From: Verrucomicrobium sp.
Lineage (GTDB): Bacteria > Verrucomicrobiota > Verrucomicrobiia > Methylacidiphilales > UBA1321
Reading direction: 5' to 3'
Length of the DNA: 64,000 nt
NCBI GenBank assembly: GCA_017849585.1
Contig: JAFIGT010000021.1
Coordinates: forward strand, 62,001-126,000
The position numbers and the translations under genes are program-made. The notes below the pieces were generated by a model. That model did no database searches. It was given only the letters and a program-made list of their open reading frames with translations, and was not told the DNA's origin. Positions 1,819 to 40,083 of the stretch are shown one piece after another; position 1 is the first letter of the stretch; the number at the start of each line of letters is the position of its first letter.

Positions 1819-1819
1819 G

Positions 1820-2788
1820 ATGAGAGTCACCAGTAATTCATTTCCGTCCACACTGACGGCACAGTTGCAGGATCTGCAGCAGAAACAAATCAAGTACCAA
1901 CAGCAATCAGCCACTGGTCTGCGCATTACCCAGTCATCCGACGATCCACTCGATTTCCAACGTGCCCAGGTTCGCCAGACGCAGTTATCGGCCAATCAAT
2001 CGTACCTCGATACAACGGCGGACGCTCAGACTCTCTGCGAGTACAATCATCAGGCCATGTCCGATCTTCAGACTGCCCTAAGCCGCGCTTCGGAGATTGC
2101 CACGAAGGTCAACGCTACCTACGACGCCAATGATTTGTTGGCGATGTCGAAGGACATTGATGGTATTCTGAAGCAGGTCGTGCTCATTGCCAACCGCCAG
2201 AAGGACGGCGCCAATCTTTTCGGAGGCACTTCGGGCAATCAACCGATTCAGGCATCGGGCACCACCTACGATTTTAACGGTTCGACCAATAGCTCAGTCA
2301 CCAGTGCCCAAATTGCCGCTGGTGGAACTGCGTTGAATACCGGTCTCGTGGCCGGGCGTTCCCCGCTAAATAACAGTACTTCGGCGGCAGCGTATGACGG
2401 CTTTCTTTATGACAGCGGTACCAGCACGGATACAATCAATAGCCTAATCCAGTTGCGCGACACGCTTGCCGCCGCCAACGCGGGAACACAAACAATCAGT
2501 CAGGTGGCGACAGCAGTGCAGAATACTTGGTTGCCAGGGGTCAATAAGGCGGTTGACCTGGCATCCCGCTACGTCGGCGTAACCGCCGCCAGCCTGGAAT
2601 CACTTTCTTTGAATAAAACGGCGCTCACCAACCAGGTAAAGGTCGATAAAGAGAATATGAGTGCGGTGACCAATGTGAATCTGGCCGAGGCGCTGACCAA
2701 CCTCCAGCAGACACAAACCAATTATGAGGCGGCGTTGCAGGCTGGCGCCAAAATTTTAACTCTGTCTCTGATGGACTATTTGAAATGA
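1820..2788 (+). CDS. flgL: Flagellar hook-associated protein 3 (FlgL)
   Basis: A 322-residue flagellin-related junction protein that joins FlgK to the filament. The N-terminal helix has the flagellin-like stretch with SATGLRITQSSDDP (about residues 31-44), and the C-terminus ends with the paired helix NVNLAEALTNLQQTQTNYEAAL, the standard FlgL/flagellin ending. It lies one base after flgK, and its stop codon overlaps the fliW start in an ATGA, which suggests translational coupling. Length is normal for the family. Confidence 0.95.
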   Translation: MRVTSNSFPSTLTAQLQDLQQKQIKYQQQSATGLRITQSSDDPLDFQRAQVRQTQLSANQSYLDTTADAQTLCEYNHQAMSDLQTALSRASEIATKVNATYDANDLLAMSKDIDGILKQVVLIANRQKDGANLFGGTSGNQPIQASGTTYDFNGSTNSSVTSAQIAAGGTALNTGLVAGRSPLNNSTSAAAYDGFLYDSGTSTDTINSLIQLRDTLAAANAGTQTISQVATAVQNTWLPGVNKAVDLASRYVGVTAASLESLSLNKTALTNQVKVDKENMSAVTNVNLAEALTNLQQTQTNYEAALQAGAKILTLSLMDYLK

Positions 2789-8946: not shown

Positions 8947-9039
8947 AATGTCTGATCCTGAAACGGGAAGGCGACTGGGGCAATCCCAAAGTCGTGGGTG
9001 GTGCCTTGTATGCGCGGCGGTCCATGGTATGGTGGCCGC

Positions 9040-10602
9040 ATGAGCGAACAGATGGGGTGGAGACGAGAGTGGCCGACCTTTGTGGGGTTGACCGTCTTGG
9101 GCTCGCTCTGGTTTTTTCTGCTGAACCAACTGCGAGTCGAATGGACGGTGAACGAGCAGTATAATTACGGGTGGTTCGTGCCGGGACTGTCGCTCTATTT
9201 ATTCTGGGAAGCGTGGCAAACGCGACCAGCGGCAGTCCCACTGGCTTCAAAATACGGAATGGGACTGGTGTTCGGAGCGCTACTGGTTGGGTTGTTGCCT
9301 GTGCGGTTGATGCTGGAAGCCAATCCGGATTGGCGGCCGGCGAGTTGGGCGTTGGCAATTCTGGTGGTGGGGATCACTTGGTGCGGACTTTATGCGCGCG
9401 GTGGAGCACCGTGGTGGCGACACTTTGCGTTTTCTACCGCTTTCATTTTGGCGGCGGTGCCATGGCCATCCGTGGTCGAGCAACCGTTAGTGCGGGAACT
9501 GATGAACTGGGTGGCGACGTTCAGCGTAGAATGGCTCACGTGGCTTGGAATCCCGGCGCAGGCGAGGGGAAATGTGATCGCGTTGCCTGGGCAGCTGGTT
9601 GGTGTGGACGAGGCGTGCAGCGGAGTACGCTCGCTGCAGACGGTGATCATGGCAGCGCTTTTTTTGGGAGAGATTTATCGTCTGTCAGTGAAGCGGCGCG
9701 GTGCGTTGCTCGCTTTGAGCGTTGTATTGGCCTTTGTGGCGAACGTAGTGCGGGCTTTTGTTCTGGTGTGGATTGTAGCCCATGGCGGAGCTGCAGATTT
9801 GCCCAAATGGCACGATCCGATTGGGTACACGGTGTTGATCATTTCATTGGCGGGTGTCGCCTCTTTGGGGCATGTGCTGAGAAACCAGAAGGCGAATGTT
9901 CCAGTGACAGGTCAGGGTATGGAAACTGGAGAACGCGTATTCACTCCGGGAATGGCGTCCCTGCAGGTATGGGGTGCGATTTTTCTTTGGCTGGTGGCGG
10001 TGGAGGGCGCGACGGAGGCGTGGTATCGCTGGCATGAAGGTCGTGCCGTGCGGGCGACACCGTGGACGGTGCGATTGCCTTCAGGCGCAACGCAATTCCG
10101 GCCCGTGAAGTTGAGCGAGGCAGAGTCACGACTTCTGCGTGTGAACCAAGTGGAAGCGGGCGCGTGGCTGGATTCCGGGGTGGAGGTGATGACTTATTTT
10201 CTACGCTGGGAACCGGGCCGTACTGCGGCGCAATTGGCGCGGCTGCACCGTCCGGAAATTTGTTTGCCATCAGCAGGGTGTTTTCTCCGCTCGAACGAAG
10301 GAACGTGGACCGGCGAGGCAAACGGGGTGACGTTGCCATTCCGGCAACTTGTATTCGATTTCAACCGAACACCGTTATATGTCTTCTATTGCCTGCGCGA
10401 AGATCGGGTGACCGAAGGTGCGGACATCAGTGAGGATTGGACGATTCGCAGCCGGTGGCAGGCGATGATCGAAGGTCGTCGCAATCAGGGGCAGCAAGTG
10501 CTCGAAGTGATTCTCCGCGGACCGCAAACCTCCCCGCAGGCTGAGGAGGTCATGCGCCGGTTGCTACCGGTTTTGGTACAGGCCGCGCCGGCCAGAGATT
10601 AA
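9040..10602 (+). CDS. Exosortase fused to an EpsI-like C-terminal domain
   Basis: About 520 residues from the ATG at 9040; an earlier ATG at 8998 is possible. Residues up to about 290 form a multi-pass membrane domain with the three exosortase catalytic residues: Cys193 in VDEACSGVRS, Arg238 in ANVVRAF and His258 in WHDPIGY. This family is a transpeptidase-like enzyme thought to cleave and process proteins with a PEP-CTERM tail at the inner membrane. The remaining part (about 300-520) carries HRPEICLPSAG and a soluble beta-rich region like EpsI/DUF3485, which in many bacteria is a separate gene. A PEP-CTERM substrate is encoded at 26909 and an exopolysaccharide locus at 41608-53531. Confidence 0.88.
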   Translation: MSEQMGWRREWPTFVGLTVLGSLWFFLLNQLRVEWTVNEQYNYGWFVPGLSLYLFWEAWQTRPAAVPLASKYGMGLVFGALLVGLLPVRLMLEANPDWRPASWALAILVVGITWCGLYARGGAPWWRHFAFSTAFILAAVPWPSVVEQPLVRELMNWVATFSVEWLTWLGIPAQARGNVIALPGQLVGVDEACSGVRSLQTVIMAALFLGEIYRLSVKRRGALLALSVVLAFVANVVRAFVLVWIVAHGGAADLPKWHDPIGYTVLIISLAGVASLGHVLRNQKANVPVTGQGMETGERVFTPGMASLQVWGAIFLWLVAVEGATEAWYRWHEGRAVRATPWTVRLPSGATQFRPVKLSEAESRLLRVNQVEAGAWLDSGVEVMTYFLRWEPGRTAAQLARLHRPEICLPSAGCFLRSNEGTWTGEANGVTLPFRQLVFDFNRTPLYVFYCLREDRVTEGADISEDWTIRSRWQAMIEGRRNQGQQVLEVILRGPQTSPQAEEVMRRLLPVLVQAAPARD

Positions 10603-25733: not shown

Positions 25734-25756
25734 GATTTAATTTGTATGATAAAGTG

Positions 25757-25791
25757 TTGACTAGATGGGCTAAGTTTGATATTGTATCAAA
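25757..25791 (+). promoter_or_regulatory. Promoter overlapping the palindrome TTTGATATTGTATCAAA at the regulator start
   Basis: TTGACT (25757-25762) and TATTGT (25780-25785) are 17 bases apart and form a fair sigma-70 promoter. The -10 box lies inside a perfect palindrome, arms TTTGATA (25775-25781) and TATCAAA (25785-25791) around TTG, ending one base before the ATG at 25793. Binding of the regulator here would block its own transcription. The predicted RNA start coincides with the start codon, so the message may have no leader. Confidence 0.5.
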
Positions 25792-25792
25792 T

Positions 25793-26887
25793 ATGGCGAC
25801 CACAGTGAGCGCAAAGCTAGAGCAGATTTATAACCCGCTTCGCGAGGGAATACTTTCAGGGCGTTGGAAGGTAGGGGATCGAATCCCGACGGAAAACGAG
25901 CTATCGGCTGAGTATCATTGCAGCCGCGGCACCGTGGGGCGCGCGTTGGCGAGATTGGTTCAAGAGGGGTTGGTGGAGCGGCGTACGAGCGATGGCACTC
26001 GGGTGCTTCGGAATGCGGTGAATCCCACGGTCACTCCATTGGAGTTGGATGCCTGTGCGTTTGTCTACCCGAGTCAGCGCCACGAAGGAATGTGGCGGAC
26101 ATTGTTGGGCTTTCAGGAAGCGGCGGCTGGAGTGAATCGTCGTGTGGTCAGTCTTTCCACAGGAACGGATTTTCGCAAGGAGGCTGAGATTATCGGTCGA
26201 TTGGATGATTTTTCTGTATTGGGGGCTGTGTTGTTACCGGTGATCGTTGGGCCGAAGGAAATGGCTTATTACACGCAGACGTTATTGGCCTGCCGTCTGC
26301 CCGTCGTGCTGGTGACGATGAATATTCCTTCGATGGAGCGACCGGCGGTGATCTCGGACCGGTTTCATGCCGGATACACCATGACGCAATATTTAATAGG
26401 CAAGGGGCAGCGCAAGATTGGTTTTCTCGATAACACGACGTGGACGCGCCGGGAGAATTACCTCGGATATCGGCAGGCGATGGAAGAGGGGGGGATTACC
26501 GATTTTCAGAAGTGGGTGCAGTTGGACTCCTCGATGGTTCCGCATTTTGAGGATCCTACGCGCCAGCCCATTGAATTGGCCAAGGCCTATTTGCTCGCGC
26601 ACCCGGACGTCGAAGCGGTCGTTGGGGCGGACGACTTCATTGCTCGCGGGCTTGTTCTGGCGGCGGAAGAACTCGGTCGCCACGTGCCGACAGACCTGCG
26701 AGTCGTGGGTTTGAATCACTATCAAATTGCGAAAGTGGGTGGGATCAGTTTGACCACCTACAGCGTGGACTATGAGAAGATGGGGCGACTTTCGTTCGAG
26801 ATTCTGAATCGGATGATTACCGAGAAGGTGACGACGGCAGAGGAAGTCCAGATTCGGGGCGAAATCATTCCGGGACAGAGCGCTTAA
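25793..26887 (+). CDS. GntR/LacI hybrid transcriptional regulator
   Basis: A 364-residue regulator from the ATG at 25793. Residues about 8-72 form a GntR-type winged helix (LREGILSGRWKVGDRIPTEN, then SAEYHCSRGTVGRALARLVQ). The rest is a LacI-type periplasmic-binding-protein fold that would bind a sugar: it includes the YLIGKGQRKIGFL segment, VEAVVGADDFIARGLVLAAEELG and LRVVGLNHYQIAKVGGISLTTYSVDYEKMG. The same architecture is known in AraR. As first gene of the plus-strand arm it probably controls the carbohydrate genes that follow and itself through the palindromes upstream. The ligand is unknown. Confidence 0.88.
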   Translation: MATTVSAKLEQIYNPLREGILSGRWKVGDRIPTENELSAEYHCSRGTVGRALARLVQEGLVERRTSDGTRVLRNAVNPTVTPLELDACAFVYPSQRHEGMWRTLLGFQEAAAGVNRRVVSLSTGTDFRKEAEIIGRLDDFSVLGAVLLPVIVGPKEMAYYTQTLLACRLPVVLVTMNIPSMERPAVISDRFHAGYTMTQYLIGKGQRKIGFLDNTTWTRRENYLGYRQAMEEGGITDFQKWVQLDSSMVPHFEDPTRQPIELAKAYLLAHPDVEAVVGADDFIARGLVLAAEELGRHVPTDLRVVGLNHYQIAKVGGISLTTYSVDYEKMGRLSFEILNRMITEKVTTAEEVQIRGEIIPGQSA

Positions 26888-26908
26888 TTATCAACCAACA
26901 CAATTATC

Positions 26909-27781
26909 ATGAATAAAAATCTCTCCATTCGAATTGTAGCTTGTAAAGCGATGCTGCTGGCTGCGTGTGCGAGCGCGTCCGCTCAAATTGTAGTCTATAA
27001 CTTCAATCAAACGGGCACGACTGTGTCAAATAGCGGAACGAGTACGGAGGCGCTTGCGCTGGCGAACTCATCGGGTGTGGCGACCGATCTTCACTCGGGT
27101 GATGCCTTGGGAGTTTCAGGGAGGCCCGGAGATCGTGCCTTTGATAATTCGGCTTCCACGGCGATGGGGAATATTGGAACTGGAGGATATGGAAAGAGCA
27201 CGTCGGCGATTAGTGCGGATCTCGGAGCTCTGAAATCGTTCACAATCCAAGGCTGGTACAAGACCGATGGTTCCGTGATCGGTGCGGGTGCGCAATTGGT
27301 GAACTATAAAAATGGAAGCTCCGGGTTCTTGGTGAACGCGTCGAACACAGGAAGCTTGTCGCTGGAAGTAAATGGGGTTGGCGCCTACGGTTCGGGATCT
27401 GCATATAGCGCCGCATCGGAATGGACCTTTTTTGCGGTTACTTATGATGGCACCAAGACCACGGGTAATGTGAAATTCTATGTAGGAAGCACCGCATCTT
27501 CAGTGACGCTGGCGTATACTTTAAATCTGAATGGCGGGACGATGGTTTTGCCGGGCGGGACGACGGCACTTGGAATTGGCAATAATTATGGCTCTCCCAA
27601 TCGTCCTTTTGATGGGCTGATTGATAACGTGCGGATCTATGGATCCACAACGGATGCGACTGGCGTTTTGAGCCTGACGGAGCTGGAATCGATTCGCTCC
27701 CTTGATGTCGTACCCGAGCCATCGAGCGCTGCTCTGATGATCGGCGCTGTCTCACTATTCGCGGCATTTAAGCGCCGCTAA
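26909..27781 (+). CDS. LamG-domain protein with PEP-CTERM sorting signal
   Basis: A 290-residue exported protein. A signal peptide covers the first 25 residues (cleavage near ASASA-Q). Residues about 60-255 form a laminin-G/concanavalin-like beta sandwich with FTIQGWYKTDG, WTFFAVTYDGT and FDGLIDNVRIYG, the usual LamG landmarks. The C-terminus has VPEPSSAAL, a hydrophobic stretch and a basic end (FKRR), the PEP-CTERM tripartite signal recognised by exosortase. It is the only clear substrate in the window for the exosortase at 9040. It may bind a polysaccharide outside the cell, in keeping with the catabolic genes that follow. Confidence 0.9.
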   Translation: MNKNLSIRIVACKAMLLAACASASAQIVVYNFNQTGTTVSNSGTSTEALALANSSGVATDLHSGDALGVSGRPGDRAFDNSASTAMGNIGTGGYGKSTSAISADLGALKSFTIQGWYKTDGSVIGAGAQLVNYKNGSSGFLVNASNTGSLSLEVNGVGAYGSGSAYSAASEWTFFAVTYDGTKTTGNVKFYVGSTASSVTLAYTLNLNGGTMVLPGGTTALGIGNNYGSPNRPFDGLIDNVRIYGSTTDATGVLSLTELESIRSLDVVPEPSSAALMIGAVSLFAAFKRR

Positions 27782-27845
27782 ACGGCGCGAGTGTTCCTGT
27801 TCCAGGTGATTCGATCGGTTGATTGCGAACCGCAGAATGGAGTTG

Positions 27846-28505
27846 ATGTACCTCCTCAGACCAAGATCAATTCAGCGAGGATTTTCGCTGATCGAGTTGC
27901 TGGTCGTCGTGGCGATCATCGGAATCATGATCGCGCTTTTATTGCCGTCAATTACACAATACCGCAAGCTGAGTTCAGCCTCGGTCTGCTCCGGGCAGAT
28001 GCGTCAGTTGTATACCGTCCTGGTCAGTTATGCGGGGGATAATAACGGTGAATGTTATCCCGCCTTTAACGAATCACTGCCGGGAGATCAAGCGGTGTGG
28101 TACTACAAACTCGCACCGTTGAGTGCCTATGCCTCCAGTGGAAAACAACTGCAGAAATTGTCGGTGTGTCCCGAGATTCGCAGTCCCGCTCCGCTGGGCA
28201 TCGATAACGGCCAGTACGTGAACAACGATTACGGCTATCCGTATGTGGTGAATTATAATGTGATGCGCAATAACGGGACCTTGCGGCGGCCCCGCTTCGG
28301 CACCATCAATTCTCCGGCGCAAGTGGTGCTGATGACCGACACGAAGAAGATGTCCGGTTGGGGTTATGGGTTCGGCGATACGAGCCTGACGACGATCAAC
28401 CGGATCGGGGAGCCGCACGTGGAGAAGGCCAATATTCTCTGGTGCGATGGTCATAGCACCCGCGAGAAGCGGGACGCGATCACAAACACGAATCTCTATC
28501 CTTGA
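27846..28505 (+). CDS. Pseudopilin-like protein with H-X9-DG ending
   Basis: A 219-residue protein. The start at 27846 is favoured by GGAG at six bases; earlier ATGs exist. Residues 12-35 form a type IV pilin-like N-terminus: the Gly-Phe cleavage site with Glu at +5 in GFSLIELLVVVAIIGIMIAL. The rest is a globular domain ending in the H-X9-DG motif (His, nine residues, then Asp-Gly, in HVEKANILWCDGH). Large families of such proteins occur in Planctomycetota and Verrucomicrobiota, often beside polysaccharide-degrading enzymes; their role is not established. It lies between the PEP-CTERM protein and the GH5 gene. Confidence 0.88.
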   Translation: MYLLRPRSIQRGFSLIELLVVVAIIGIMIALLLPSITQYRKLSSASVCSGQMRQLYTVLVSYAGDNNGECYPAFNESLPGDQAVWYYKLAPLSAYASSGKQLQKLSVCPEIRSPAPLGIDNGQYVNNDYGYPYVVNYNVMRNNGTLRRPRFGTINSPAQVVLMTDTKKMSGWGYGFGDTSLTTINRIGEPHVEKANILWCDGHSTREKRDAITNTNLYP

Positions 28506-28532
28506 GAGAGTCCAAACGCGAAGAACGATTTT

Positions 28533-29702
28533 ATGAAGAAAATTGCCATTTCACTATCTGTAATCCTTTTTACCTGGGCGCTCGGTCAGTCATGGGGAGC
28601 CCCGCCTGTTTCTGTTGCCAAAGATGAAAATTCACAGCAAGCGACACCGCCAGCGCGGGCGGTCAAATATCGGGGGCTCACCATTCGCTTGCTGGATGAA
28701 AAAACATTGCGCGATGCCAAGGAGAAATGGGGCGCCAATATTGTGCGTATCCAGTTTCCGATGGATCACCTAGTCAAGAATTACAACCTGAGTTGGGATG
28801 AGGCGTGGAAGAAGAATCTGGAGGATATCGATCGCGGGCTCGATATCGCCAATCAGCTCGGCATCACTGTCGTGTTGACGATGCCTTTCATGGGAGCTGA
28901 GCAGTATGACCGCAATGCCAGTCGTTGGGCTAATCTCGAAAGGCTCTGGGACAATGATGTGAATCTGGACCATATGAAAATGCGGTGGCATCAGATCGCT
29001 GCGGTGGCGGCCAAAAAGAACGTCGCGGTGTGGTATGACTTATTGAACGAGCCGCTGGATCGTCGTGATTGGCCGCGCGCTCCGAAGAAGTGGCCGGTAT
29101 GGGCACAAGCGTTGATTGATGAAATCCGCGCGGTGGACAAAAAGAACTGGATCGTGGTTGAGTCTGGTCCCGGTGGCGAAATGTGGGAGGGGATCAAGTC
29201 CTTTCCGCGACTCAAGGACGATAAATTGATTTATTCCATCCACCTGTATGCACCGATGAAATACACCCATCAGGGTGTGCATGACACCCAGTATACGGAT
29301 CTGACGGCACCGGTCATGGTGGTGAACAAGACATGGCCGGGGGAATATACAGACACGTGGGGTAATGGCTATTGGGACAAGGCGCGGTTGATGCGCTTGC
29401 TGCAGCCGGTGATTGAGTTTTCAAAAAAGAACCCCGATATCCCCATCTACATGGGCGAATTCAGCGTGGCGCGTTGGGCACCCAAGGGAGCGGACTATTT
29501 GAAGGATTGTCTGGAAATTTTTGAAGAACTGGGATGGGACTGGACCTATCACGCTTTGCGCGAATCGCCGATTTGGAGCCTGGAGCATACGGAGGAGTAT
29601 AGTTTGGATAAACCGCAGCTTGCCGAAAAGATGACCGAGCGTGGAATCGTGGTGAAATCTTTTCTGGATAAGAACGTACCGAATGGCGGGCGCACTCCCT
29701 GA
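28533..29702 (+). CDS. Exported glycoside hydrolase family 5 enzyme
   Basis: A 389-residue protein with a signal peptide (MKKIAISLSVILFTWALGQS, cleavage near residue 22). The catalytic domain is a TIM barrel of the GH5 (endoglucanase/mannanase) family: the acid/base glutamate is in YDLLNEP (Glu173) and the nucleophile in IYMGEFS (Glu309), with HLYAP (His237) between them. The specificity (cellulose, mannan, xyloglucan or another beta-glycan) cannot be read from the sequence. It is probably periplasmic or secreted and sits in the same transcript direction as the regulator and the lyase-like gene. Confidence 0.88.
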   Translation: MKKIAISLSVILFTWALGQSWGAPPVSVAKDENSQQATPPARAVKYRGLTIRLLDEKTLRDAKEKWGANIVRIQFPMDHLVKNYNLSWDEAWKKNLEDIDRGLDIANQLGITVVLTMPFMGAEQYDRNASRWANLERLWDNDVNLDHMKMRWHQIAAVAAKKNVAVWYDLLNEPLDRRDWPRAPKKWPVWAQALIDEIRAVDKKNWIVVESGPGGEMWEGIKSFPRLKDDKLIYSIHLYAPMKYTHQGVHDTQYTDLTAPVMVVNKTWPGEYTDTWGNGYWDKARLMRLLQPVIEFSKKNPDIPIYMGEFSVARWAPKGADYLKDCLEIFEELGWDWTYHALRESPIWSLEHTEEYSLDKPQLAEKMTERGIVVKSFLDKNVPNGGRTP

Positions 29703-29729
29703 GCGCGACATTATATAGGAATTGTTATT

Positions 29730-30950
29730 ATGCAGGATCAGCCTTTTGAGCAGTTACTTCATAATCCGGATTTCTTTTCGCGATGGGTCGATCCGAAAAC
29801 GAAGGTGGAGAGTTACATTCTGAATCAACATGTAGCACCGGTTCAGCAATCGTTTTACTATACGAGCCCGAGCCTCACTCGCGACGGGAATTACTATTGG
29901 TTTTACTGCAGCTTTCCGCCGAGCGGCGATGCACGGTTGGGGCGAACTCTGGGTGTGCTGGACGTACAAGCGCAAGAGATTCGACATTGTCCCGAGACGC
30001 AGTTTTCCGAGGCATCTCCGCTGGTCGATGTGGAGAGCGGGGAGGTTTACTGGTGCAGTGGTGCGGTGATCTGGAAGCGCAAGCCGGAAAAGTCGGCGAT
30101 GCCCGAAAAAGTGAACGAGTTGCCTGCGGAGATTGTCCAGCATCGGCGGGTGGCACATGTGGCGACGCATCTGACTTTTTCTGCAACCAAAAAACGCCTC
30201 AATTTCGATGCGCGAATCGGAGAGGATTGGTACATCGGCAGCGTACCACTGGATGGATCGCCGGGTAACGTGTGGCAGAAGATGGACCGTTGCTATAACC
30301 ATGCGCAGTTTTCGCCGACGGACGAACATTTGCTACTCTTCGCACAGGATTTTTATGCGAATAGCCTCACTGGGAAAGTAACGCGTTATGAGAACCGGAT
30401 GTGGTTGATTCGCGAGGGCGAAGCGCCCACGTCGGTATTTTCGGATGAGTGGGCAAGTCATTATCAGGGCTACAAGGGGACGACCTTTAACGCGCATACG
30501 CCACAGGCCGGGGCATTGCTAGTTTCAGACCCGCGCGCGATGCATGGTCATGAATGGTGGGCAGCGGACGGGACCGGTATTTATTATGTGCACTATGGAC
30601 AGGGAGTGGAACGGGTAAGTCTGACGGATCGCAAGCCGGTGATGATCTGGCCGCTGAAGACGATCTCGCATGCGCATGCGACGATGAAGGGTGATTATTT
30701 GGTCGGGGACAATCAACCGCAGCAAGATCTGGCGGACAGTCGCGTGGTGTTTTTCAACCCGAAATCCGGACATGAAATCAATATTGTTTCGGATCTGCCT
30801 CGGGTACCAGCAGAGTTAAAGCCGTACCATCTGGATCCCCATCCGCAGTTTTGTATGGGGGATCAAATGATCTGCTACACCACGACCATTCTGGGGCGGA
30901 TGGATGTGGCGTTTACGCCAGTGGATGCTCTGGTCGAGGCGACGCGGTAA
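29730..30950 (+). CDS. Oligogalacturonate-lyase-like beta-propeller protein (PL22 type)
   Basis: A 406-residue protein without signal peptide. The repeated strand pattern with Trp/Tyr-rich segments fits a seven-bladed propeller, and the regions MHGHEWWAADGTGIYYVHYG and SHAHATMKGDYLVGDNQPQ resemble those holding the metal-binding histidines in oligogalacturonate lyases, with a further YHLDPHPQF near the C-terminus. PL22 enzymes cleave short unsaturated galacturonides in the cytosol. This fits the mannonate dehydratase on the other strand, but distant propeller relatives with other roles exist. Confidence 0.7.
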   Translation: MQDQPFEQLLHNPDFFSRWVDPKTKVESYILNQHVAPVQQSFYYTSPSLTRDGNYYWFYCSFPPSGDARLGRTLGVLDVQAQEIRHCPETQFSEASPLVDVESGEVYWCSGAVIWKRKPEKSAMPEKVNELPAEIVQHRRVAHVATHLTFSATKKRLNFDARIGEDWYIGSVPLDGSPGNVWQKMDRCYNHAQFSPTDEHLLLFAQDFYANSLTGKVTRYENRMWLIREGEAPTSVFSDEWASHYQGYKGTTFNAHTPQAGALLVSDPRAMHGHEWWAADGTGIYYVHYGQGVERVSLTDRKPVMIWPLKTISHAHATMKGDYLVGDNQPQQDLADSRVVFFNPKSGHEINIVSDLPRVPAELKPYHLDPHPQFCMGDQMICYTTTILGRMDVAFTPVDALVEATR

Positions 30951-30956
30951 CGCGCG

Positions 30957-31925
30957 CTAGACGTAGGGAATGCGGTAGGCATCCATGATGCCCTTCATGT
31001 AGCCGATGGCGAAGAGGCGACCGAGCGTGGCGTAACCGTGCTGGGAGTTGTCTTCGCCTTCCATGGTGGGGACGTGATCAACGCGGATGGGGACGTTAAG
31101 TCCGGCTTGATGGTAGCAATGGAGAATATGCGCCATGTCGGTCGGGCCGTTATCGTGGAAAGTTTCTTCGAAATTTTCGGCCGTGCCGCGCACATCGCGG
31201 AAGTGGACGAACTTGATGCGTGGCGCGAAGAAATTAATGCACGCTTCGAGATCGGCGCCCATGGCGACGAAATTCGCCTGACAAAAAGTGATGCCGTGCG
31301 CGGGACTGGTGGAAAGACTCATCGCGCGGGCAAACGCGTCCGGTGAGGTGAGGATGCGGCCCACGCCACGGAGCGGGCTCATGGGCGGATCGTCGGGGTG
31401 CAGGCCCATCGAGACACCAGCTTTTTCCGCGACGGGAATCACATTGCGAATAAAGTATTCGTAGTTTTCCCAGAGTTTATCTTCCGTCACACGATCGGCT
31501 TCCGGCACGGGCGTAGGATCGAGTTCGGAGAGGACAAAGCGATTGGTGAATGCGCCGCCGCGAGTGGGGACGGCGACCTGTGTGCGGCACCAGCCGATGG
31601 TGGCCATGAAATTATAGCAGAGGAGGGGAATACCGAGTTCTCCCATGTTACGGAGCATGGCGACGTACTGGGCGAGATCTTCATCACGGCCATCGAGGCC
31701 GAGTTTGATCCGCTGCATGTTGAATTGATCGCCTTCCATCCCGGAGAGTTTGAATCCGGCGTCTTCGAAACGTTTTTGTACGGTTCGCAAGGCGTCGATA
31801 TCCGAGGGCGGTTTGAGTCCGGTCAATTCGGGCGCGGCCTTGACAATGGCGTGGGTGACGCCGAGTTGGGCGGCGAGTTTCCACGATTTATCAGGAACGG
31901 CAGGGAGAAAGTCGGCGATGATCAT
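30957..31925 (-). CDS. uxuA: Mannonate dehydratase (UxuA-like)
   Basis: A 322-residue TIM-barrel enzyme converting D-mannonate to 2-keto-3-deoxygluconate, the step after reduction of fructuronate in glucuronate breakdown. The segments GVSMGLHPDDPPMSPL, GRILTSPDAFARAM and KFVHFRDVRGTAENFEETFHDNG are characteristic, and the metal-binding His/Cys/Asp residues are in these. It is the last gene of the minus-strand arm headed by the IclR gene. It is shorter than the roughly 390-residue E. coli UxuA and more like the compact type found in other phyla. Confidence 0.88.
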   Translation of the reverse strand: MIIADFLPAVPDKSWKLAAQLGVTHAIVKAAPELTGLKPPSDIDALRTVQKRFEDAGFKLSGMEGDQFNMQRIKLGLDGRDEDLAQYVAMLRNMGELGIPLLCYNFMATIGWCRTQVAVPTRGGAFTNRFVLSELDPTPVPEADRVTEDKLWENYEYFIRNVIPVAEKAGVSMGLHPDDPPMSPLRGVGRILTSPDAFARAMSLSTSPAHGITFCQANFVAMGADLEACINFFAPRIKFVHFRDVRGTAENFEETFHDNGPTDMAHILHCYHQAGLNVPIRVDHVPTMEGEDNSQHGYATLGRLFAIGYMKGIMDAYRIPYV

Positions 31926-31935
31926 GGGTGGGAGA

Positions 31936-32736
31936 CTATTTCAAGGGATCGGACGCATGGTCTTTTTTGAGTCGAACGGGTAAGATCGAGGCGAGGTGAT
32001 CCATCTCCTCGTCGGTGAGGGTGCGGTCGAAAACCGCAATGCCGCCGATGATGCCGGTAAACCAATTGCCGATGGAGCCGAGGCGGTCGACGGCGCCGAC
32101 GGTGAAATCGCCGCCGACATCGCCCGCGTCGAAGATGCCGAGTTTGTAAGGATATGGATTCAACTTTTCGCGGACGTCGAGAATGCCGTTGTGGTAGGCC
32201 TTGGTGAATTCGCCATCGTAGGTGAAGCCGCCGCAGTACCAGTTCTCGAAGTAGGTGACATCGCTGTAAGTAATCGCGGCATCCATGCACCAGCGGTTGC
32301 CGGGGGTGGGACCGCCGAGGCCGGAGACGTGACCGGCAATTTGATCTGCGCTATTGTGAATGCGGAGGTCGAGGAAAAGTCCGTACTGGCGTTTCGCGCG
32401 CGTTTCGTCCCAGATACCGGCGAGGAATTCGCATTGAATCTCGGGTTTGCGATAGCGCTTAAACCACGCCACAACGCTGACCTGGGCTTGGGGACCGTGG
32501 ATGTTCAGCGCCGGGCAATCCTTGCGGCTGGCAGAGAGCCACTGCTTGGGTCGCAAGAAAGCGGCGTGCGGTCCGAACAGACCGCCGTCGACGCGTTCGA
32601 TGGCCCCGGCCATTTCCTGCAGGACGTAGGGATGGGCTCCCTTCGCCACGCGGGGCTTGCCGGTGGGTTCCTGAAAATCCCAGAAGCTGATGAGGTTCGG
32701 GAATTGCTGGATTGAATCGGACGTCAAGGCGGTCAT
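31936..32736 (-). CDS. LamG-like protein without a signal peptide
   Basis: A 266-residue concanavalin/LamG-type beta sandwich. Landmarks are NLISFWDFQEPTG near the start, QVSVVAWFKRY, YCGGFTYDGEFTKAYHNG and the C-terminal GIIGGIAVFDRTLTDEEM, which is a typical LamG ending. No signal peptide or membrane helix is seen, so it should be cytosolic, which is unusual for LamG proteins. It lies between the RraA-type gene (27 bases) and uxuA (10 bases) and is clearly in the same operon. The function is unknown; a role in binding or trimming an imported saccharide is inference. Confidence 0.8.
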   Translation of the reverse strand: MTALTSDSIQQFPNLISFWDFQEPTGKPRVAKGAHPYVLQEMAGAIERVDGGLFGPHAAFLRPKQWLSASRKDCPALNIHGPQAQVSVVAWFKRYRKPEIQCEFLAGIWDETRAKRQYGLFLDLRIHNSADQIAGHVSGLGGPTPGNRWCMDAAITYSDVTYFENWYCGGFTYDGEFTKAYHNGILDVREKLNPYPYKLGIFDAGDVGGDFTVGAVDRLGSIGNWFTGIIGGIAVFDRTLTDEEMDHLASILPVRLKKDHASDPLK

Positions 32737-32763
32737 GATGCGGCGATTTTGTTGCGCGATGGC

Positions 32764-33507
32764 TTAGAAGTAACCACCCTTTTCTGTGATCTGGTGGATG
32801 CTCTGGCCTTCGGCGACCCAACCGAAAATCTTCTTTTCGTTCGCTTTGATTTCCTCAGCGCGCAGGAGCACGTCGTAGGCAATCTCGCGGGGTACAATGA
32901 GCACGCCGTCGATGTCACCGAGAACAACGTCGCCGGGCTTGATCGTGGTGTCACCGATCTTGACGGGGATTTGGTAGTGGGTGATCAGGCAACGGCCGAG
33001 GCTGCCATTGGAGATGCGGTATTTGTAGAAGAGCGGGAAATCCTTCTCGAGGATCTGGTGCGTATCGCGGATGCCTCCGTCGATGCAGGCCGCTTTCACT
33101 TTCTTGCCGACGGCGGTGGCGGTCATGACGCCGCCCCAGAGGGTGGCTTTCTCATCCTTGCTGGTGTCCCAGACGACGAAGTGATTTTCGCCCATCTCGT
33201 CGAGCATCTGCGTGCGGAATTCCATTTCGCCGCGAATTTTGACATTCGGCGCGCTCTTCACGGTGAAGGCGAAACCGGCTACGGTGCGGTATTCGCGCAG
33301 GGGTAGGATGTGACCGGGGAGAGCCTGCTCGAGGAGACAGAACTCACGCAGCACATCGTTGACGGCTCCGGTGTAGAGTTGCTCAAAACGGGAGAGTAAT
33401 TCCTGATCAGAAACGGGGAAGGTCTTTGTCGATACGCCTTCGCGTGTCTCGATGAGCTTTTCCAGTTTCATCATTCCAACTTCTTTTTTGTAGGTGTCGA
33501 CTGACAT
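32764..33507 (-). CDS. RraA / HMG-CHA aldolase family protein
   Basis: A 247-residue protein of the RraA fold. The phosphate/metal site segment WGGVMTATAVGKKVKAACID with GGIRDTHQI and the C-terminal GDIDGVLIVPREI are typical. Family members include 4-hydroxy-4-methyl-2-oxoglutarate aldolase and others of unknown substrate; in sugar-acid operons they are usually taken to be aldolases or decarboxylases of 2-keto acids. True RraA proteins that inhibit RNase E are shorter (about 160 residues). An alternative start is the Met at residue 12. Confidence 0.82.
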   Translation of the reverse strand: MSVDTYKKEVGMMKLEKLIETREGVSTKTFPVSDQELLSRFEQLYTGAVNDVLREFCLLEQALPGHILPLREYRTVAGFAFTVKSAPNVKIRGEMEFRTQMLDEMGENHFVVWDTSKDEKATLWGGVMTATAVGKKVKAACIDGGIRDTHQILEKDFPLFYKYRISNGSLGRCLITHYQIPVKIGDTTIKPGDVVLGDIDGVLIVPREIAYDVLLRAEEIKANEKKIFGWVAEGQSIHQITEKGGYF

Positions 33508-33559
33508 GGTGTGGGGGTGGGTTAGGTGTGTAGGGTTGAGGTGAAAAAGTGAGGAGGGA

Positions 33560-34324
33560 TTACAGGCTCATGCCGCCATCGACAAAGAGATTCTGTCCGG
33601 TGATGTAGCGGCCCGCTTCGGAAGCGAGCAACAGCGCGGCGCCGGTGCAATCCTGCGGTTCGCCGAGGAAGCCGACTGGAATGGCATTGAGCACTTTTTT
33701 CGCATAGGCCGCATCGGCAAGGCGATCGACATTGCGGTCGGTCTGGATCACCCCTGGCGCGATGTTATTGGCGGTAATGCCGAAGGGCGCGAGTTGCTTG
33801 GCCAGGCTGACGATCATGGCGGTCTGCGCGCATTTGAGGGAGGAGTAAACGAGCATGTCCGGGTGCGGCACGGTTTCCTGCACACTGCCAATGCTGATCA
33901 CGCGACCCCAGCGTCGTTCCTGCATGGCGGGAACAGCTTGGTGCAATAGGTCGAGCGTGCGGCGATAGTTGATCACCATCTGCTTGTCGAACGCTTCGGG
34001 GGTGATCTCGCGCCAGTTGATGGGGATTTGCACGGAGGCGTTCAGTACGAGGATGTCGAGCTGTCCGAGCGCGGCGACAGTTTCATTGTAGAGATAAGAG
34101 GCGGCATCGGCTTCGTAGAGATCCTTGTGCACAACGGTAGTTTTCACTCCGAATGTGGCCGCTTTTTTCGCGACGTCGCGGGCCTGCTCGGCTTTGCCGG
34201 TGTAATGAATGGCCACATCGGCGCCCGCTTCGGCTAAAGACAAGGCGATCGCAGCTCCGATGCCACGGCTGGAGCCAGTGACGAGGGCTTTTCGGTTTTT
34301 TAGGGAGAAGAGTTCGCTGTTCAT
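33560..34324 (-). CDS. Short-chain dehydrogenase in the uronate operon
   Basis: A 254-residue SDR with a normal cofactor motif TGSSRGIG (about residues 16-23), NAS in place of NAG (LVLNASVQ), the catalytic Ser in ISIGSVQE and Tyr/Lys in YSSLK. The C-terminus GQNLFVDGGMSL is standard. The start overlaps the iclR stop. It could be a KduD-type ketodeoxyuronate reductase, or reduce fructuronate to mannonate in place of UxuB, which would supply the substrate for UxuA in this operon; both are inference. Confidence 0.85.
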   Translation of the reverse strand: MNSELFSLKNRKALVTGSSRGIGAAIALSLAEAGADVAIHYTGKAEQARDVAKKAATFGVKTTVVHKDLYEADAASYLYNETVAALGQLDILVLNASVQIPINWREITPEAFDKQMVINYRRTLDLLHQAVPAMQERRWGRVISIGSVQETVPHPDMLVYSSLKCAQTAMIVSLAKQLAPFGITANNIAPGVIQTDRNVDRLADAAYAKKVLNAIPVGFLGEPQDCTGAALLLASEAGRYITGQNLFVDGGMSL

Positions 34325-35103
34325 AAAGTGGGATTGAGTTCGCGGAAGCGGCGGGTGATGGCATTCGCGCAGAGCACCATTTCCTTTTTCAACTTGGGAT
34401 GTCGCGAGTTCGGCAAATCGTTGGGGAAACCAATGGCGGTCAGCGAAGCGATGACCTCATTATTCAGTCCGAGCACCGGCACGGAAATGGCGTAATGGCT
34501 GGGATTGAAGATACCCGCATCGACGCAGTAGCCGTTTTTCTTCAGGAATTTCAAACGGTCCTGTACGATCTGCTGGGTCTGATGTTTCCAGCAGGTGGTC
34601 GGCATGCGTTGCAGAATCGCGGCAATCTCCTTCGGCTCCAGTCGGCTCAGCAGGACGGCCCCGGAGGAACCTTCCGCGAGTGGGAAAGTGGCGCCTTCGC
34701 GAGTGGAGACGGAGGTTTCTTTGGGCGATTCGTGACGGCAGAGTGCGACGGCGAGATCGTCGCGACGGATGGAAAGTTTTACCGTGAGTTCTATCTTTTC
34801 CGCCAACTTGGCCAGTTCCGGGCGGCTGACGGCGATGAGGCCTTCGAGCGGTTGACCTTGCTGCACCAGTGTAAGCAGACCGAGGGAAAGTTCGTGGCCA
34901 CCACCGGGAATGGGGCGGATCCAGTCGTGGGCCATTAAGGTGCGCAGAATGCGGTAGCACGTGACGGAAGGAATGCCGGTCTCGGCTGCGAGCGCCTTGG
35001 CCGTGAGGTTAGCGCGGCCCTGTGAGCGGGCAATGGTCTGGATGACCTGAAGCGTCCGATGAACTACGGGAACTGTGTGCGGTAATTCCTTTGGAGCGAT
35101 CAT
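34321..35103 (-). CDS. IclR-family transcriptional regulator
   Basis: A 260-residue regulator with an N-terminal winged helix (about 10-75; VVHRTLQVIQTIARSQG and ETGIPSVTCYRILRTLM) and a C-terminal effector domain (about 85-255; ASLTAIGFP near the end). IclR proteins such as KdgR respond to small acids or keto sugars, which fits an operon for uronate use. It is the first gene of the minus-strand arm and overlaps the SDR gene by four bases, so it is probably made in step with its targets and regulates its own promoter. Confidence 0.9.
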   Translation of the reverse strand: MIAPKELPHTVPVVHRTLQVIQTIARSQGRANLTAKALAAETGIPSVTCYRILRTLMAHDWIRPIPGGGHELSLGLLTLVQQGQPLEGLIAVSRPELAKLAEKIELTVKLSIRRDDLAVALCRHESPKETSVSTREGATFPLAEGSSGAVLLSRLEPKEIAAILQRMPTTCWKHQTQQIVQDRLKFLKKNGYCVDAGIFNPSHYAISVPVLGLNNEVIASLTAIGFPNDLPNSRHPKLKKEMVLCANAITRRFRELNPTL

Positions 35104-35336: not shown

Positions 35337-35819
35337 ATGTCGGCATGCATGGGGCATCGCGGGAGACAAGGGGAAGGCAAATGGAGGCGGGCTGGTGGAT
35401 TCAGTCTCGTCGAGGTGGTGTCGTCTTTAGGGATCATTTCGTTTGGTCTCATTGCGCTCCTGGGATTGCTGCCGGTGGGCTTGCAGGTCTCGCGCGACGC
35501 GCGGGAATCGACCGCGGAGGCGCAGATCAACCAATATCTGACCAATCTGGCGCGACAGACAGCGCCCGCACACTGGAAGGATATTGTAGAGCCCCGCGTG
35601 TTCACCTTCGACCGGCAGGGACTGAATGTGCCGGAGAATTCCGATGAGGTTTTTTACCTGGCGTCGCTGTCGATGGAAGCGAGCACTGGGACGGTGCTTC
35701 CGTCCGACTCGAATTATGTGAGCGCGAGCTTGTCGACGCTGCGAGTGACTTTGAAAAAGAGCAACGGCTCGGGTACGGCACGGATCACGGCCCTGCATCT
35801 GGTGACGGCGGGGAATTAA
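35337..35819 (+). CDS. Verru_Chthon cassette protein B, GspI-like pseudopilin
   Basis: A 160-residue protein from the ATG at 35337 (a GTG at 35307 is in frame too). The N-terminus carries a prepilin cleavage site, GG before FSLVEVVSSLGIISFGLIALLG, with Glu at +5, followed by a hydrophobic helix and a small beta-rich domain. This is the prepilin-type processing signal. The combination with the next two genes is the Verru_Chthon cassette, in which this member is protein B. By position and type it corresponds to the minor pseudopilin GspI of type II secretion. Confidence 0.8.
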   Translation: MSACMGHRGRQGEGKWRRAGGFSLVEVVSSLGIISFGLIALLGLLPVGLQVSRDARESTAEAQINQYLTNLARQTAPAHWKDIVEPRVFTFDRQGLNVPENSDEVFYLASLSMEASTGTVLPSDSNYVSASLSTLRVTLKKSNGSGTARITALHLVTAGN

Positions 35820-35820
35820 G

Positions 35821-36837
35821 ATGAAGTCGAACGCCGAACGAGGTCGCTACGGCGCTTATACGCTGATCGAGCTTTTGGCCGCGATGGCCACCTTGTGCGT
35901 GATTTTACTGATGCTCTTTACGACGACGGGCATGGCGACTTTGGCTTGGAAGGAGAACTCGGCTTCGACGGAGACATTTCAGCAGGCGCGGACGGCGTTC
36001 TCCACCGTTACACGGCGGTTGAGCCAGGCCACGCTGAACAGTTACCGGGATTATTACAACACCGCGTCGAGCCAAGGGTTCACGTACCCGGATTTACCGG
36101 CAGGAAAGACGGAGTATCGCCAGCGATCGGAACTTCATTTTCTTATCGGTCATGCTGCAGACTTGATGCCAGATGCGGGGGCGACGCGACCCACGCATGC
36201 GGTTTTTTTTCAAGCTCCGTTCGGATACCAGAAGAAAGCAGACGGTTTGCGTTCGCTCCTGAATGTCTGCGGTTATTACGTGGAATACGGGGATGATAGT
36301 CAAAACCGGCCCAGTTTTTCGGCCCTGTCGAGCGAAGCAAAAAAGCGCAGCCGCTTGTACGAGATCATGCAGCCGAGCGAGGAGTTTGCGCTCTACAAAT
36401 CCGGCACGGCACGGGGATGGCTGACCGGACTCATCACCTCGTCACTCGCCGCGAACTCGCACGCGTTGGCGGAGAATATCGTCGCATTGATCTTGTTGCC
36501 CCAGCGCCGGCCGGATGACATGGAGCTGGCTCCTCGTTACGCATACGATTCGCGTGCCTGGTTGAAAGGGCGGACAACGCTGGGGGATTTGACGCAGAAT
36601 CAATTACCGCCGCTGGTGCAGGTGACGATGGTGGTGATCGACGAGCCTTCGGCGAAGCGACTACAAGATCAGGATCAATTGAAGGATCTGGTCGACACTT
36701 CGTTATTCCAGGACGCCGCGCAGTTCAGTGCGGATTGGCAACGGCTGCAGGACAAGTTGAAGAGCCAGTGCCGTTACCGCTGTTTTCAAACCACGGTGAG
36801 CCTAGCGTCCTCCACCTGGAGCGAGAGCGCTCCGTAG
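35821..36837 (+). CDS. Verru_Chthon cassette protein C, GspJ-like pseudopilin
   Basis: A 338-residue protein, one base after the previous gene. The pseudopilin N-terminus is YTLIELLAAMATLCVILLML (Glu at +5 of the mature protein), followed by FQQARTAFSTVTRRLSQATLNSYRDYY, which matches both the Verru_Chthon C pattern and the first helix of GspJ. The remaining 250 residues are globular with no known catalytic motif. It is about 140 residues longer than ordinary GspJ. Confidence 0.82.
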   Translation: MKSNAERGRYGAYTLIELLAAMATLCVILLMLFTTTGMATLAWKENSASTETFQQARTAFSTVTRRLSQATLNSYRDYYNTASSQGFTYPDLPAGKTEYRQRSELHFLIGHAADLMPDAGATRPTHAVFFQAPFGYQKKADGLRSLLNVCGYYVEYGDDSQNRPSFSALSSEAKKRSRLYEIMQPSEEFALYKSGTARGWLTGLITSSLAANSHALAENIVALILLPQRRPDDMELAPRYAYDSRAWLKGRTTLGDLTQNQLPPLVQVTMVVIDEPSAKRLQDQDQLKDLVDTSLFQDAAQFSADWQRLQDKLKSQCRYRCFQTTVSLASSTWSESAP

Positions 36838-36840
36838 GAG

Positions 36841-39800
36841 GTGGAAGTGGCTATGCTGACAAACCCTACCAGCGCGAGGAGGGCGTCGCGTTCGGGCATG
36901 GCATTGATACTCGTGATGTTCTTGCTCGTGCTGCTTTCGTGTTTATTCATGGGCTATTTTTCGTCCATCACAGCGGAGCGGATCAGTGCGAAGAATTTTG
37001 CCGTGACGAATGAAACGCGGATGCTGGCCGAATCAGCTGTGAACATCGTGATGTCGCAGATCGTGGAGGCGACGACGCGCGAACCCGATGCGGCGTGGAC
37101 GTCACAACCGGGTATGATCCGGACTTTTGACGCCGACGGGAAGCCACTTTACTGCTACAAACTGTATTCTTCGAACAAGATGGTGGTGAAGGGGGGATTT
37201 AATGCGCGAGCTCTCGCTTCACAGGAAATACCGGACGACTGGTCCAGCCGAAAAGGGGAGTTCATCGATTTGAATGCGCCATCAAAACGGTTGACTGGCT
37301 GGCGTTATCCGATAGTGGACCCGGCCGCTGCCAAGCAAGTGGAGGGATTCGCTCTGGATCCGAAGTTCGAAGTGGCGATGCCGGTGCGCTGGATTTACGT
37401 GTTGCGGGGCGGCCAGCTGACGGTGGGGGTGCCACTGGGGCGGGGACGTTTGAAGATTGCTGCGGCAACGACGGAGAATCCGGTGGTGGGGCGTATCGCG
37501 TTTTGGACTGACGATGAAACCTGCAAGGTGAATATCAATACCGCTTCCGAGGGCGTATTTTGGGAGACGCCGCGCACGCAGTCATTGGCGGACCAGACGA
37601 TGGCCGGTCGTCAACCCCGGAAGGGCGAATTTTCCCGTTTCGCGGGGCATCCCGCGACGGTTTGCCTGAGCACGGTGCTTCCTAGTCTGGTGGGAAACGG
37701 AGTGCCACGTTATGGCAAAATTTACGCAATGACCCCGCGTCTCGGTGCCACAGGTGGTTCGCAGGAAGGGACCATCGAAATCGCCAATCAGAGCAACATC
37801 GCGGACAAGCAGGACCGGTTGTACGGAAGTCTGGATGAATTGCTATACACGATGCCGCGGCAAACGAATAGCGGGTTGGTTGCCAGTGAGATCGAGCGGG
37901 GGCGATTTTTTCTCACGGTGGCGAGTCGCTCTCCTGAGTTGAATTTATTCAACCGACCGCGCGTGACACTCTGGCCGATCTCTTTCAGTGAGTCGAAGCG
38001 GAGCCCCTTGGACAGGCTCATGGTGTTGTGCTCGACAATTCCCGGAGCGGGCAATGCGCGACTGTATTTCACCCGGCAGGATAATCGGAACGCTACGGTT
38101 GATTTTGCGGGCGATGCCAAAAATCGAAAGCTTTACGAATATTTGCAGCAGTTGACCTCGCAGCCCGTGCCGGGATTTGGGGGTGGATCGCTAGCATCGA
38201 AATACGGTGGCACTGCGGGGCGGGATCAAATTCTGACGGAAATCTTCGACTTCGTCCGCTGCGCGAATTTGTTCGATCCGAACTTACTCAAGAGCAGTGA
38301 TCTCTTCACCGCAAAGACTCCGGGACAGGTGGTTCCTATCGCGATCGGCACTACACATGGATTGGGTCGCTATCCCACGTTGGCAGAAGCCGCCATTCAA
38401 TTCTACGCCACGTCGACTGACAGTAGTACCGGGAAGGTGAATGGCATGCGGGCGGCCTTGCTGCTGGCCTTGAATAACCCGGCCCAAGGCTATGGGGCGA
38501 CTGCTCCAAGCTATACGATTCGTGTGGCAACGAAGGCCCCTTTTTCCACTGACACGACGCCGACTTTTTCATTCACCGGCGACATCGAGCGAAAGGGAGT
38601 CATGTCCACCGATTCGTCACGGTTAGGTGGCGAGGAGAGTTTTGCACGGCTCCTCTCCGCTTCCTATCCCTATGTGTTGAAGACGGATATTCCGGTGGTG
38701 GACGAGAAATTCAGTTTTGGCGGAGGTGTCATCGAAGTCTCTTTTCTTTCCAACGCCACGTCCACGCAGCCCGTACAAATAGTCCGGGTGAAATTTCCAA
38801 AGGTCGAAGGCTCTCTCGCTGCTCCGCTCATGCCACCCGCAACGGAAAGTTACGCGGGCTGGTCCGATTACACGAAGCGCATGGGACATGAGGATGATCC
38901 GAATTTCTTTCAGTTCGACGTGGTGCGGAGCGTGACGCCACCCGGTGGTGATAGTCGCCTGACAGCCGGAATGCCGATGGTATTGACTCCGGAAGAGGGT
39001 GGTGCCGCGTGTTTTGCTCCACTCTCTGCGAATGACTATCTGGACGTAGCGAAGGCACGGGTCTTTAGCCTGCGCACTCCCGGCGGTGAATACTATACCG
39101 ATGCGAAGGGCCCCAATCTTGGGGCAGGAGATTGGGATAATGGCGTCGGCAATACCCCGGATGGGGCCTACATCGGGAAGCCGGATGAGGGCTGCGTTAC
39201 GACTAATAGTGGTGGGGTGCCGTACTTCAATGGCGACGCGACGGTGGTGAGCGAGAAATACTATTTCAATCAACGACAGATCGCGTCGCCTGTCGCTCTG
39301 GGTTCTCTGCCCACGGGCATTGTCTCCGGGACACCCTGGCAGACGTTGCTGTTCAATCCGCATCCGTTGTCGAATGTCCATCCTGGAGGAAATGCGCCGC
39401 ATGATTTTCTGTGGCTTGATCTATTCAGCGTGCCGACGGTCGAGCCGTATGCGCTGAGTAGTCCACTGACAGCCAGTGGACGGGTGAATTTAAATTACGA
39501 GATGGTTCCTTTCACGGGAATGATACGGACAACGGCACTGCGGGCGGCGTTGAAGTCGACGAAGATTCTGGCGATCCCGACGGGCGAGACGACCTACAAA
39601 AAAGGGAGTCCGGTGGCGAGTTCCTACTATCATCCGATTTCGACCGAAGAGACATTGAAGGGAGTGGATCAGCGTTTTTCCGGTGGCGACGTTTATCGTG
39701 CGGCAGCAGAAATTTGCACTCTGGAACTTGTTCCGGACGGTGTGACCTTCGAGGGCGTGAAAGCATGGTGGCAGGGGCAGACTTTGACCGGAGACAATTC

Positions 39801-40083
39801 GCGGGAGATGCCGTACAACCATTTGTATTCCTTGCTCACGACTCAATCGAATGGCTATCAGGTCCATTGCCGTGCCCAGTCCCTAATCAAGGCGTCAGGT
39901 TCCGATCCGCAGATCTGGGAGGAAGGCCGTGATGTGATCAGTGGCGAATACCGCGTGTCTTCCGTGATCGAGCGTTGGATTGATCCGGTTGATTCGCGAT
40001 TGCAGGCGGTGAATGTGTTTGAGAAGAGTCTTACGCCGTACTATCGCTTTCGCATTGTGAGTACGACGCCGTTCGTGCCATAG
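36841..40083 (+). CDS. Verru_Chthon cassette protein A, giant GspK-like protein
   Basis: A 1080-residue protein starting three bases after the previous stop. The N-terminus is SGMALILVMFLLVLLSCLF, the GspK-type helix without Glu at +5, then a helical region (ISAKNFAVTNETRMLAESAV) like that of GspK. Near residue 229 CKVNINTASEGVF matches the NINTA motif of the GspK SAM-like domain. The remaining roughly 700 residues are a large beta-rich extracytoplasmic domain with no recognised family. Ordinary GspK is about 300 residues, so this is a much enlarged tip protein. Confidence 0.82.
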   Translation: MEVAMLTNPTSARRASRSGMALILVMFLLVLLSCLFMGYFSSITAERISAKNFAVTNETRMLAESAVNIVMSQIVEATTREPDAAWTSQPGMIRTFDADGKPLYCYKLYSSNKMVVKGGFNARALASQEIPDDWSSRKGEFIDLNAPSKRLTGWRYPIVDPAAAKQVEGFALDPKFEVAMPVRWIYVLRGGQLTVGVPLGRGRLKIAAATTENPVVGRIAFWTDDETCKVNINTASEGVFWETPRTQSLADQTMAGRQPRKGEFSRFAGHPATVCLSTVLPSLVGNGVPRYGKIYAMTPRLGATGGSQEGTIEIANQSNIADKQDRLYGSLDELLYTMPRQTNSGLVASEIERGRFFLTVASRSPELNLFNRPRVTLWPISFSESKRSPLDRLMVLCSTIPGAGNARLYFTRQDNRNATVDFAGDAKNRKLYEYLQQLTSQPVPGFGGGSLASKYGGTAGRDQILTEIFDFVRCANLFDPNLLKSSDLFTAKTPGQVVPIAIGTTHGLGRYPTLAEAAIQFYATSTDSSTGKVNGMRAALLLALNNPAQGYGATAPSYTIRVATKAPFSTDTTPTFSFTGDIERKGVMSTDSSRLGGEESFARLLSASYPYVLKTDIPVVDEKFSFGGGVIEVSFLSNATSTQPVQIVRVKFPKVEGSLAAPLMPPATESYAGWSDYTKRMGHEDDPNFFQFDVVRSVTPPGGDSRLTAGMPMVLTPEEGGAACFAPLSANDYLDVAKARVFSLRTPGGEYYTDAKGPNLGAGDWDNGVGNTPDGAYIGKPDEGCVTTNSGGVPYFNGDATVVSEKYYFNQRQIASPVALGSLPTGIVSGTPWQTLLFNPHPLSNVHPGGNAPHDFLWLDLFSVPTVEPYALSSPLTASGRVNLNYEMVPFTGMIRTTALRAALKSTKILAIPTGETTYKKGSPVASSYYHPISTEETLKGVDQRFSGGDVYRAAAEICTLELVPDGVTFEGVKAWWQGQTLTGDNSREMPYNHLYSLLTTQSNGYQVHCRAQSLIKASGSDPQIWEEGRDVISGEYRVSSVIERWIDPVDSRLQAVNVFEKSLTPYYRFRIVSTTPFVP

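Follow-up and report, generated by a model that had tools for sequence, protein, structure and literature searches.

The three tightly packed genes described here, namely those of proteins B, C and A, largely fit a minor-pseudopilin tip whose subunits resemble GspI, GspJ and GspK, respectively, and in which the GspK-like one is giant and variable. Since an ordinary type II secretion system (T2SS) is coded separately in the same genome, the ten cassettes of this kind that the genome carries represent additional tip sets, and we consider it rather probable that they act as alternative, locus-specific tips for the shared T2SS. The genes lie in a stretch of 64,000 nucleotides (hereafter called the window; G000:C2:62001-126000) of a 4.79 Mb assembly.

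Results

Protein B (160 amino acids) is encoded at 35337-35819, protein C (338 amino acids) at 35821-36837 and protein A (1080 amino acids) at 36841-40083, all on the + strand, with a gap of 1 base between B and C and of 3 bases between C and A; the frame of B is likewise open from a GTG at 35307, which could be its start instead. When compared with the curated NCBIfam models, B scored 61.8 bits against TIGR02598 (cut-off, 51.4), C scored 264 bits against TIGR02599 (cut-off, 256.5), and A scored 822.6 bits against TIGR02600 (cut-off, 332.3), the last being far above chance (E = 7e-247). By these cut-offs, therefore, the three proteins are members of Verru_Chthon B, C and A, as had been claimed in the original prediction. 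Together with Verru_Chthon D (TIGR02596), these families carry the name of a cassette with no function attached, and our literature search found no paper naming Verru_Chthon or TIGR02600. A Pfam scan detected sub-threshold N-methylation motifs and nothing else in B and C, and gave no match for A.

The N-terminal motifs on which the prediction was built were verified, namely GFSLVEVV in B, YTLIELL and FQQARTAFSTVTRRLSQATL in C, and GMALILVMFLLVLL without Glu5 in A. Glu5 was present in 149 of 149 B, C and D sequences (49 of 49 for B alone), and Glu at position +5 of mature A was found in none of 61 sequences; A thus lacks Glu5, as does GspK. The NINTA motif noticed near residue 229 of A is part of KVNINTA (residues 229-235; 37525-37545, + strand), the first of two GspK-like motifs, and the second is GRVNLN at residues 880-885. 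Asn231, Asn233, Thr234, Gly880 and Asn885 in these motifs are invariant among the 61 sequences.

An AlphaFold2 model of A, which was built with 61 relatives (mean pLDDT 87.5, pTM 0.87), was compared with 999 solved chains, and the best two were XcpX (6utu_F; Z 10.9, 216 of 238 residues aligned) and GspK (3ci0_K; Z 10.5, 259 of 280 residues aligned), followed by an unrelated chain at Z 5.5. As both matches span residues 48-1080 of the model, the GspK fold (i.e., a pilin domain with an inserted alpha domain) is threaded through the whole of predicted A, with extra segments between its parts. The GspK domains that the original prediction demanded of A are hence present from end to end in the model, in a protein three to four times as large as GspK (about 300 versus 1080 residues in that prediction). 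By Foldseek alone, GspK was ranked second with an E value of 0.4, which is not significant against the PDB, and a PDB sequence search with the profiles of A and B gave no pilin relative worth using.

In the hhalign comparison of mature-protein profiles, the best partner of A was GspK (E = 2e-6), with G, H, I and J at 0.013 or worse. Against the GspK equivalog model NF037980, A scored 18.8 bits over residues 18-90 only, where the model demands 130 bits or more along the entire protein; ordinary verrucomicrobial GspKs from 14 genomes likewise remained below this cut-off (44-85 bits). Because the similarity does not extend past the first helix and the score stays below the equivalog cut-off, A is a GspK-fold homologue and not a GspK orthologue, and we do not file it as GspK proper. 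PF03934 (T2SSK) was also considered as a phylum-wide marker and was dropped, because unrelated large ORFs and T2SS-free controls matched it as well.

Residues 508-760 of A (38362-39120, + strand) form a hypervariable insert, where the mean pairwise identity among relatives is 0.24-0.27 with 39-66 inserted residues per 100. In the rest of A, except for a short linker (residues 481-507), the identity is 0.41-0.51 and the inserted residues do not exceed 17 per 100. Ig-like structures matched residues 507-727 with Z of 4-5.5, and the predicted beta-sandwich of the insert (about residues 508-660) resembles, among others, the Ig-like domains found in GH2 enzymes, too weakly for the domain to be named. 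A specificity element would be expected to look like this, with a single variable module set in a conserved scaffold.

The AlphaFold model of C (pLDDT 87.7) has, in turn, the fold of GspJ: its top ten solved structures included eight of GspJ/EpsJ/XcpW plus a Thermus pilin (TTHA1219), which ties with them, at Z of 10.4-11.6, and the next was at 4.5. Foldseek alone also placed GspJ first but with an insignificant E value of 0.013, and the mature profile of C had GspJ as its best partner (E = 5e-10). With the profile of B, GspI (E = 5e-9) tied with GspJ (E = 7e-9), and the signal was confined to the first ~52 residues. For D, G and H tied in the same comparison, 26 of the 48 sequences matched Pfam GspH, and TIGR01708 was matched with an E value of 2.5e-10 over residues 13-98. 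When the first 32 residues were removed, hhalign detected no signal for any pair of A-D and the pseudopilin profiles, and PDB sequence searches with the profiles of C and D matched pilin N-termini only. With no signal beyond the N-terminal helix, the choice among I, J, H and G cannot be made from sequence in the case of B and D. We thus regard B as putatively GspI-like from its N-terminal profile and gene position, and D, where present, as probably GspH-like from its N-terminus, the gene order and the GspH models. The proposed correspondence of B-C-A to I-J-K is therefore largely supported, with A and C placed by their predicted folds and B by profile and position.

As originally noted, D is absent from the window cassette; a scan of the window with the D profile revealed no D gene (TIGR02596) adjoining B, C and A. 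The sole match was at 27810-28502 with 37 bits, as compared with 144-252 bits for the D genes of TIGR02600-type cassettes, and this candidate for a hidden D was rejected as an H-X9-DG/GspG-like prepilin. The prepilin-type gene (+ strand) sits 7 kb upstream of the cassette between genes of a LamG PEP-CTERM protein and a GH5 protein. An orthologous cassette (locus L086), from Verrucomicrobia bacterium Tous-C9LFEB, encodes A, B and C with 88%, 92% and 94% identity, respectively, also in the order B-C-A; D is likewise missing there, and its absence is hence stable. Since the loss of XcpU, the GspH homologue, is reported to have hardly any effect on secretion (PMC6211770), a tip without D is credible.

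In the genome, the TIGR02600 model detected four full copies of A and six divergent ones, and ten cassettes were found when fetched regions were scanned with the profiles of relatives. D, which had been suggested as a target for searching elsewhere in the genome, is included in the other nine. The gene orders are B-C-A (one, in the window), B-C-A-D (two), B-C-D-A (one) and D-B-C-A (six, all divergent), the last being the order of gspH-I-J-K. Among 81 cassettes, i.e., those of this genome and its relatives that showed more than A alone, B-C-A-D (23), D-B-C-A (17) and B-C-D-A (16) were the commonest. The correspondence of B-C-A to the canonical gspI-J-K order thus extends to H-I-J-K in the 17 D-B-C-A loci. 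At one locus (L160:7509-20915), a TIGR02600-type and a divergent cassette follow in succession, about 1.4 kb apart.

Beside the window cassette, no T2SS core genes (GspC-G, L and M) were found; the core, for which a search of gspD-G had been suggested, is located on contig C7 as a complete operon composed of gspE, gspF, a gene for 353 amino acids, gspG, H, I, J, K, L and M, a gspC-like gene for 242 amino acids, and gspD. These genes were assigned by position, size and N-terminus, and GspG and GspK were confirmed by models. I, J and K of this ordinary T2SS are small (131 amino acids for I and about 300 for K). In this respect, the original prediction needs to be corrected: the cassette is not the tip set of the genome's T2SS, which has its own, and is instead one of ten extra sets. 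A related genome on a single contig (G078) similarly has 11 cassettes (8 with D), one T2SS operon and only two GspF/PilC platform proteins, i.e., one besides that of the T2SS.

As for other filament systems, PilM/N/O-like genes and secretins are present on contig C43, pilB-type ATPases on C7 and a Tad-like locus on C25. On C43 (L084; G000:C43:107000-126000), two large secretin genes stand in tandem after the PilM/N/O-like genes. Also, a second, very divergent T2SS-like locus (L082; G000:C3:113000-130801) has genes of a secretin, an ATPase, a platform and prepilin-like proteins, and its K-like protein of 551 amino acids matched no NCBIfam model.

TIGR02600 is present in 9 of the 240 genomes sampled across the phylum, all nine of which have GspG. 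In genomes that have no TIGR02600 match (e.g., G045 and G039), giant frames are also recognised by the GspK model at their N-termini, and giant GspK-like proteins are thus broader than the named family. Multiple frames of this type, 1000-1475 amino acids long, were seen in G045 and G039. GspG was found in 25 of 25 genomes with at least five GspK-model matches versus 204 of 240 overall (relatedness not corrected); with GspG so widespread, the association is a weak one.

The window cassette is preceded by a sugar-acid utilisation locus (25742-35103) with genes of a GntR/LacI-type regulator, a LamG PEP-CTERM protein, GH5, mannonate dehydratase (UxuA), an RraA-like protein, SDR and IclR; a 406-amino-acid gene at 29730 and a 266-amino-acid gene at 31936 in this locus matched no Pfam family. 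Across the loci, strict PEP-CTERM genes made up 11% of the genes within 350 bp of cassettes versus 3.5-4.6% of those more than 1 kb away (odds ratio 2.8, p 0.006, with the distance bin chosen afterwards). PATR autotransporter-like repeats occurred in 5 of 95 near genes and in fewer far genes, and several glycoside hydrolases were among the nearest genes, with fewer among the far genes. LacI regulators (7 of 95 near versus 3 of 93 far genes) showed a consistent direction but no convincing enrichment. Cassettes tend to adjoin sugar-utilisation and PEP-CTERM/autotransporter-like genes, and the enrichment is modest.

Discussion

Compared with the T2SS tip GspH-I-J-K (XcpU-V-W-X), the cassettes are alike in the gene order of D-B-C-A, in Glu5 of three subunits that is missing in K, and in the predicted K fold of A and J fold of C. 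In contrast, A has 854-1740 amino acids with a hypervariable insert versus about 300 in K, and C has 240-400 versus about 200-250 in J; furthermore, the cassettes are multiple orphan copies without core genes, and their sequence similarity is confined to the N-terminal helix. The window cassette differs from the Verru_Chthon A/B/C/D set, of which its proteins are members, in having no D. The modular pilins PilB and PilC of Streptococcus sanguinis are likewise tip pilins that carry a large additional module, but their module serves in type IV pilus adhesion and that of A is placed inside the GspK fold.

Based on what was found directly, namely the gene content and number of the cassettes, the T2SS coded elsewhere, the variable insert and the folds predicted for A and C, we propose that B, C and A would be processed by prepilin peptidase, assemble in the inner membrane by way of their N-terminal helices and prime the polymerisation of the major pseudopilin, as I-J-K do in the ordinary pseudopilus. 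The tip would then stand at the filament end with A and its insert outermost. The cassette itself encodes neither an ATPase or platform nor a major pseudopilin or secretin, so that the corresponding parts are most likely taken from the T2SS on C7. In the T2SS, GspK is the proposed contact for the choice of cargo, and the variable insert of A may confer a tip-specific choice of cargo or surface ligand. If the insert gives each tip its own specificity, the ten cassettes would supply interchangeable tips for one common machine, each regulated with its own locus, much as though the cell changed the tip according to the job. The fullest form of this proposal, in which one T2SS core serves about ten interchangeable tips, the giant GspK insert picks the cargo or ligand, and each tip is induced with its local carbohydrate locus, is put forward more tentatively. 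A precedent for several minor-pilin sets on one machine is Myxococcus, where three minor-pilin/PilY1 clusters are used with a single major pilin and a single pilus machine (PMC7541494). In an isolate of the Verrucomicrobiota, moreover, there are 67 PulG-like pseudopilin homologues, and a pseudopilin is over-expressed on alginate (PMC13274419), which would fit locus-linked pseudopilin use but concerns a different subunit family.

Alternatively, the cassettes might be tips of type IV pili, with A as a PilX-like protein joined to an adhesin and each cassette having a different ligand, like PilY1 elsewhere. The type IVa pilus tip (FimU-PilV-PilW-PilX-PilY1) is a homologous four-subunit set, several of which are known to share one machine (PMC7541494). 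In the cassettes no PilY1 was seen, and PilY1 was not one of the 25 commonest Pfam families among the 95 adjacent genes. The insert of A includes a variable beta-sandwich, PilX_N is matched weakly (E 0.01) by 2 of 10 A proteins, pilus-type genes are present on C43 and C7 of the same genome, and Glu5 is missing from PilX, too. Nonetheless, A covers nearly all of GspK/XcpX including the large alpha domain, which PilX does not have, and itself bears this extra domain along with a large insert; and for divergent A copies, the N-terminus scores higher with the GspK model (2.7e-9) than with PilX_N. Furthermore, Methylacidiphilum-like and Akkermansia-like genomes free of GspG have no TIGR02600 match, despite the type IV pilus genes of Akkermansia, and we consider this explanation unlikely.

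Less probable still is that every cassette works on its own as a system for surface proteins, in which a dedicated tip helps to export or place the adjacent PEP-CTERM or autotransporter-like protein. Such a role would suit the PEP-CTERM enrichment within 350 bp, the PATR repeats in near genes, and the large co-directional PEP-CTERM genes with gaps below 100 bp at L103, L104, L122, L127, L133 and L157, but a PEP-CTERM gene lies within 600 bp at only 15 of 71 loci, not including the window cassette, and most of the 79 PEP-CTERM matches in the genome are away from cassettes. The very many copies per genome could also suggest decaying or selfish duplicates of the T2SS tip with no function; this is highly improbable, given that the genes are kept open and tightly packed in orthologues of 88-94% identity and that the motifs are invariant despite deep divergence. 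If the cassettes are indeed alternative tips on the shared T2SS, tip-determined specificity would be directly testable by swaps and deletions, for which ten or more tips, a conserved scaffold, a variable insert and one ordinary T2SS per genome provide the basis, and four protein families bearing cassette names only would obtain a concrete role.

Elsewhere in the window, an exosortase (TIGR02602; 111 bits, above cut-off) is encoded at 8998-10602 (+ strand) as the partner of the 79 PEP-CTERM matches in the genome, and two genes at 310-2788 (+ strand) read as those of the flagellar hook-associated proteins FlgK and FlgL.
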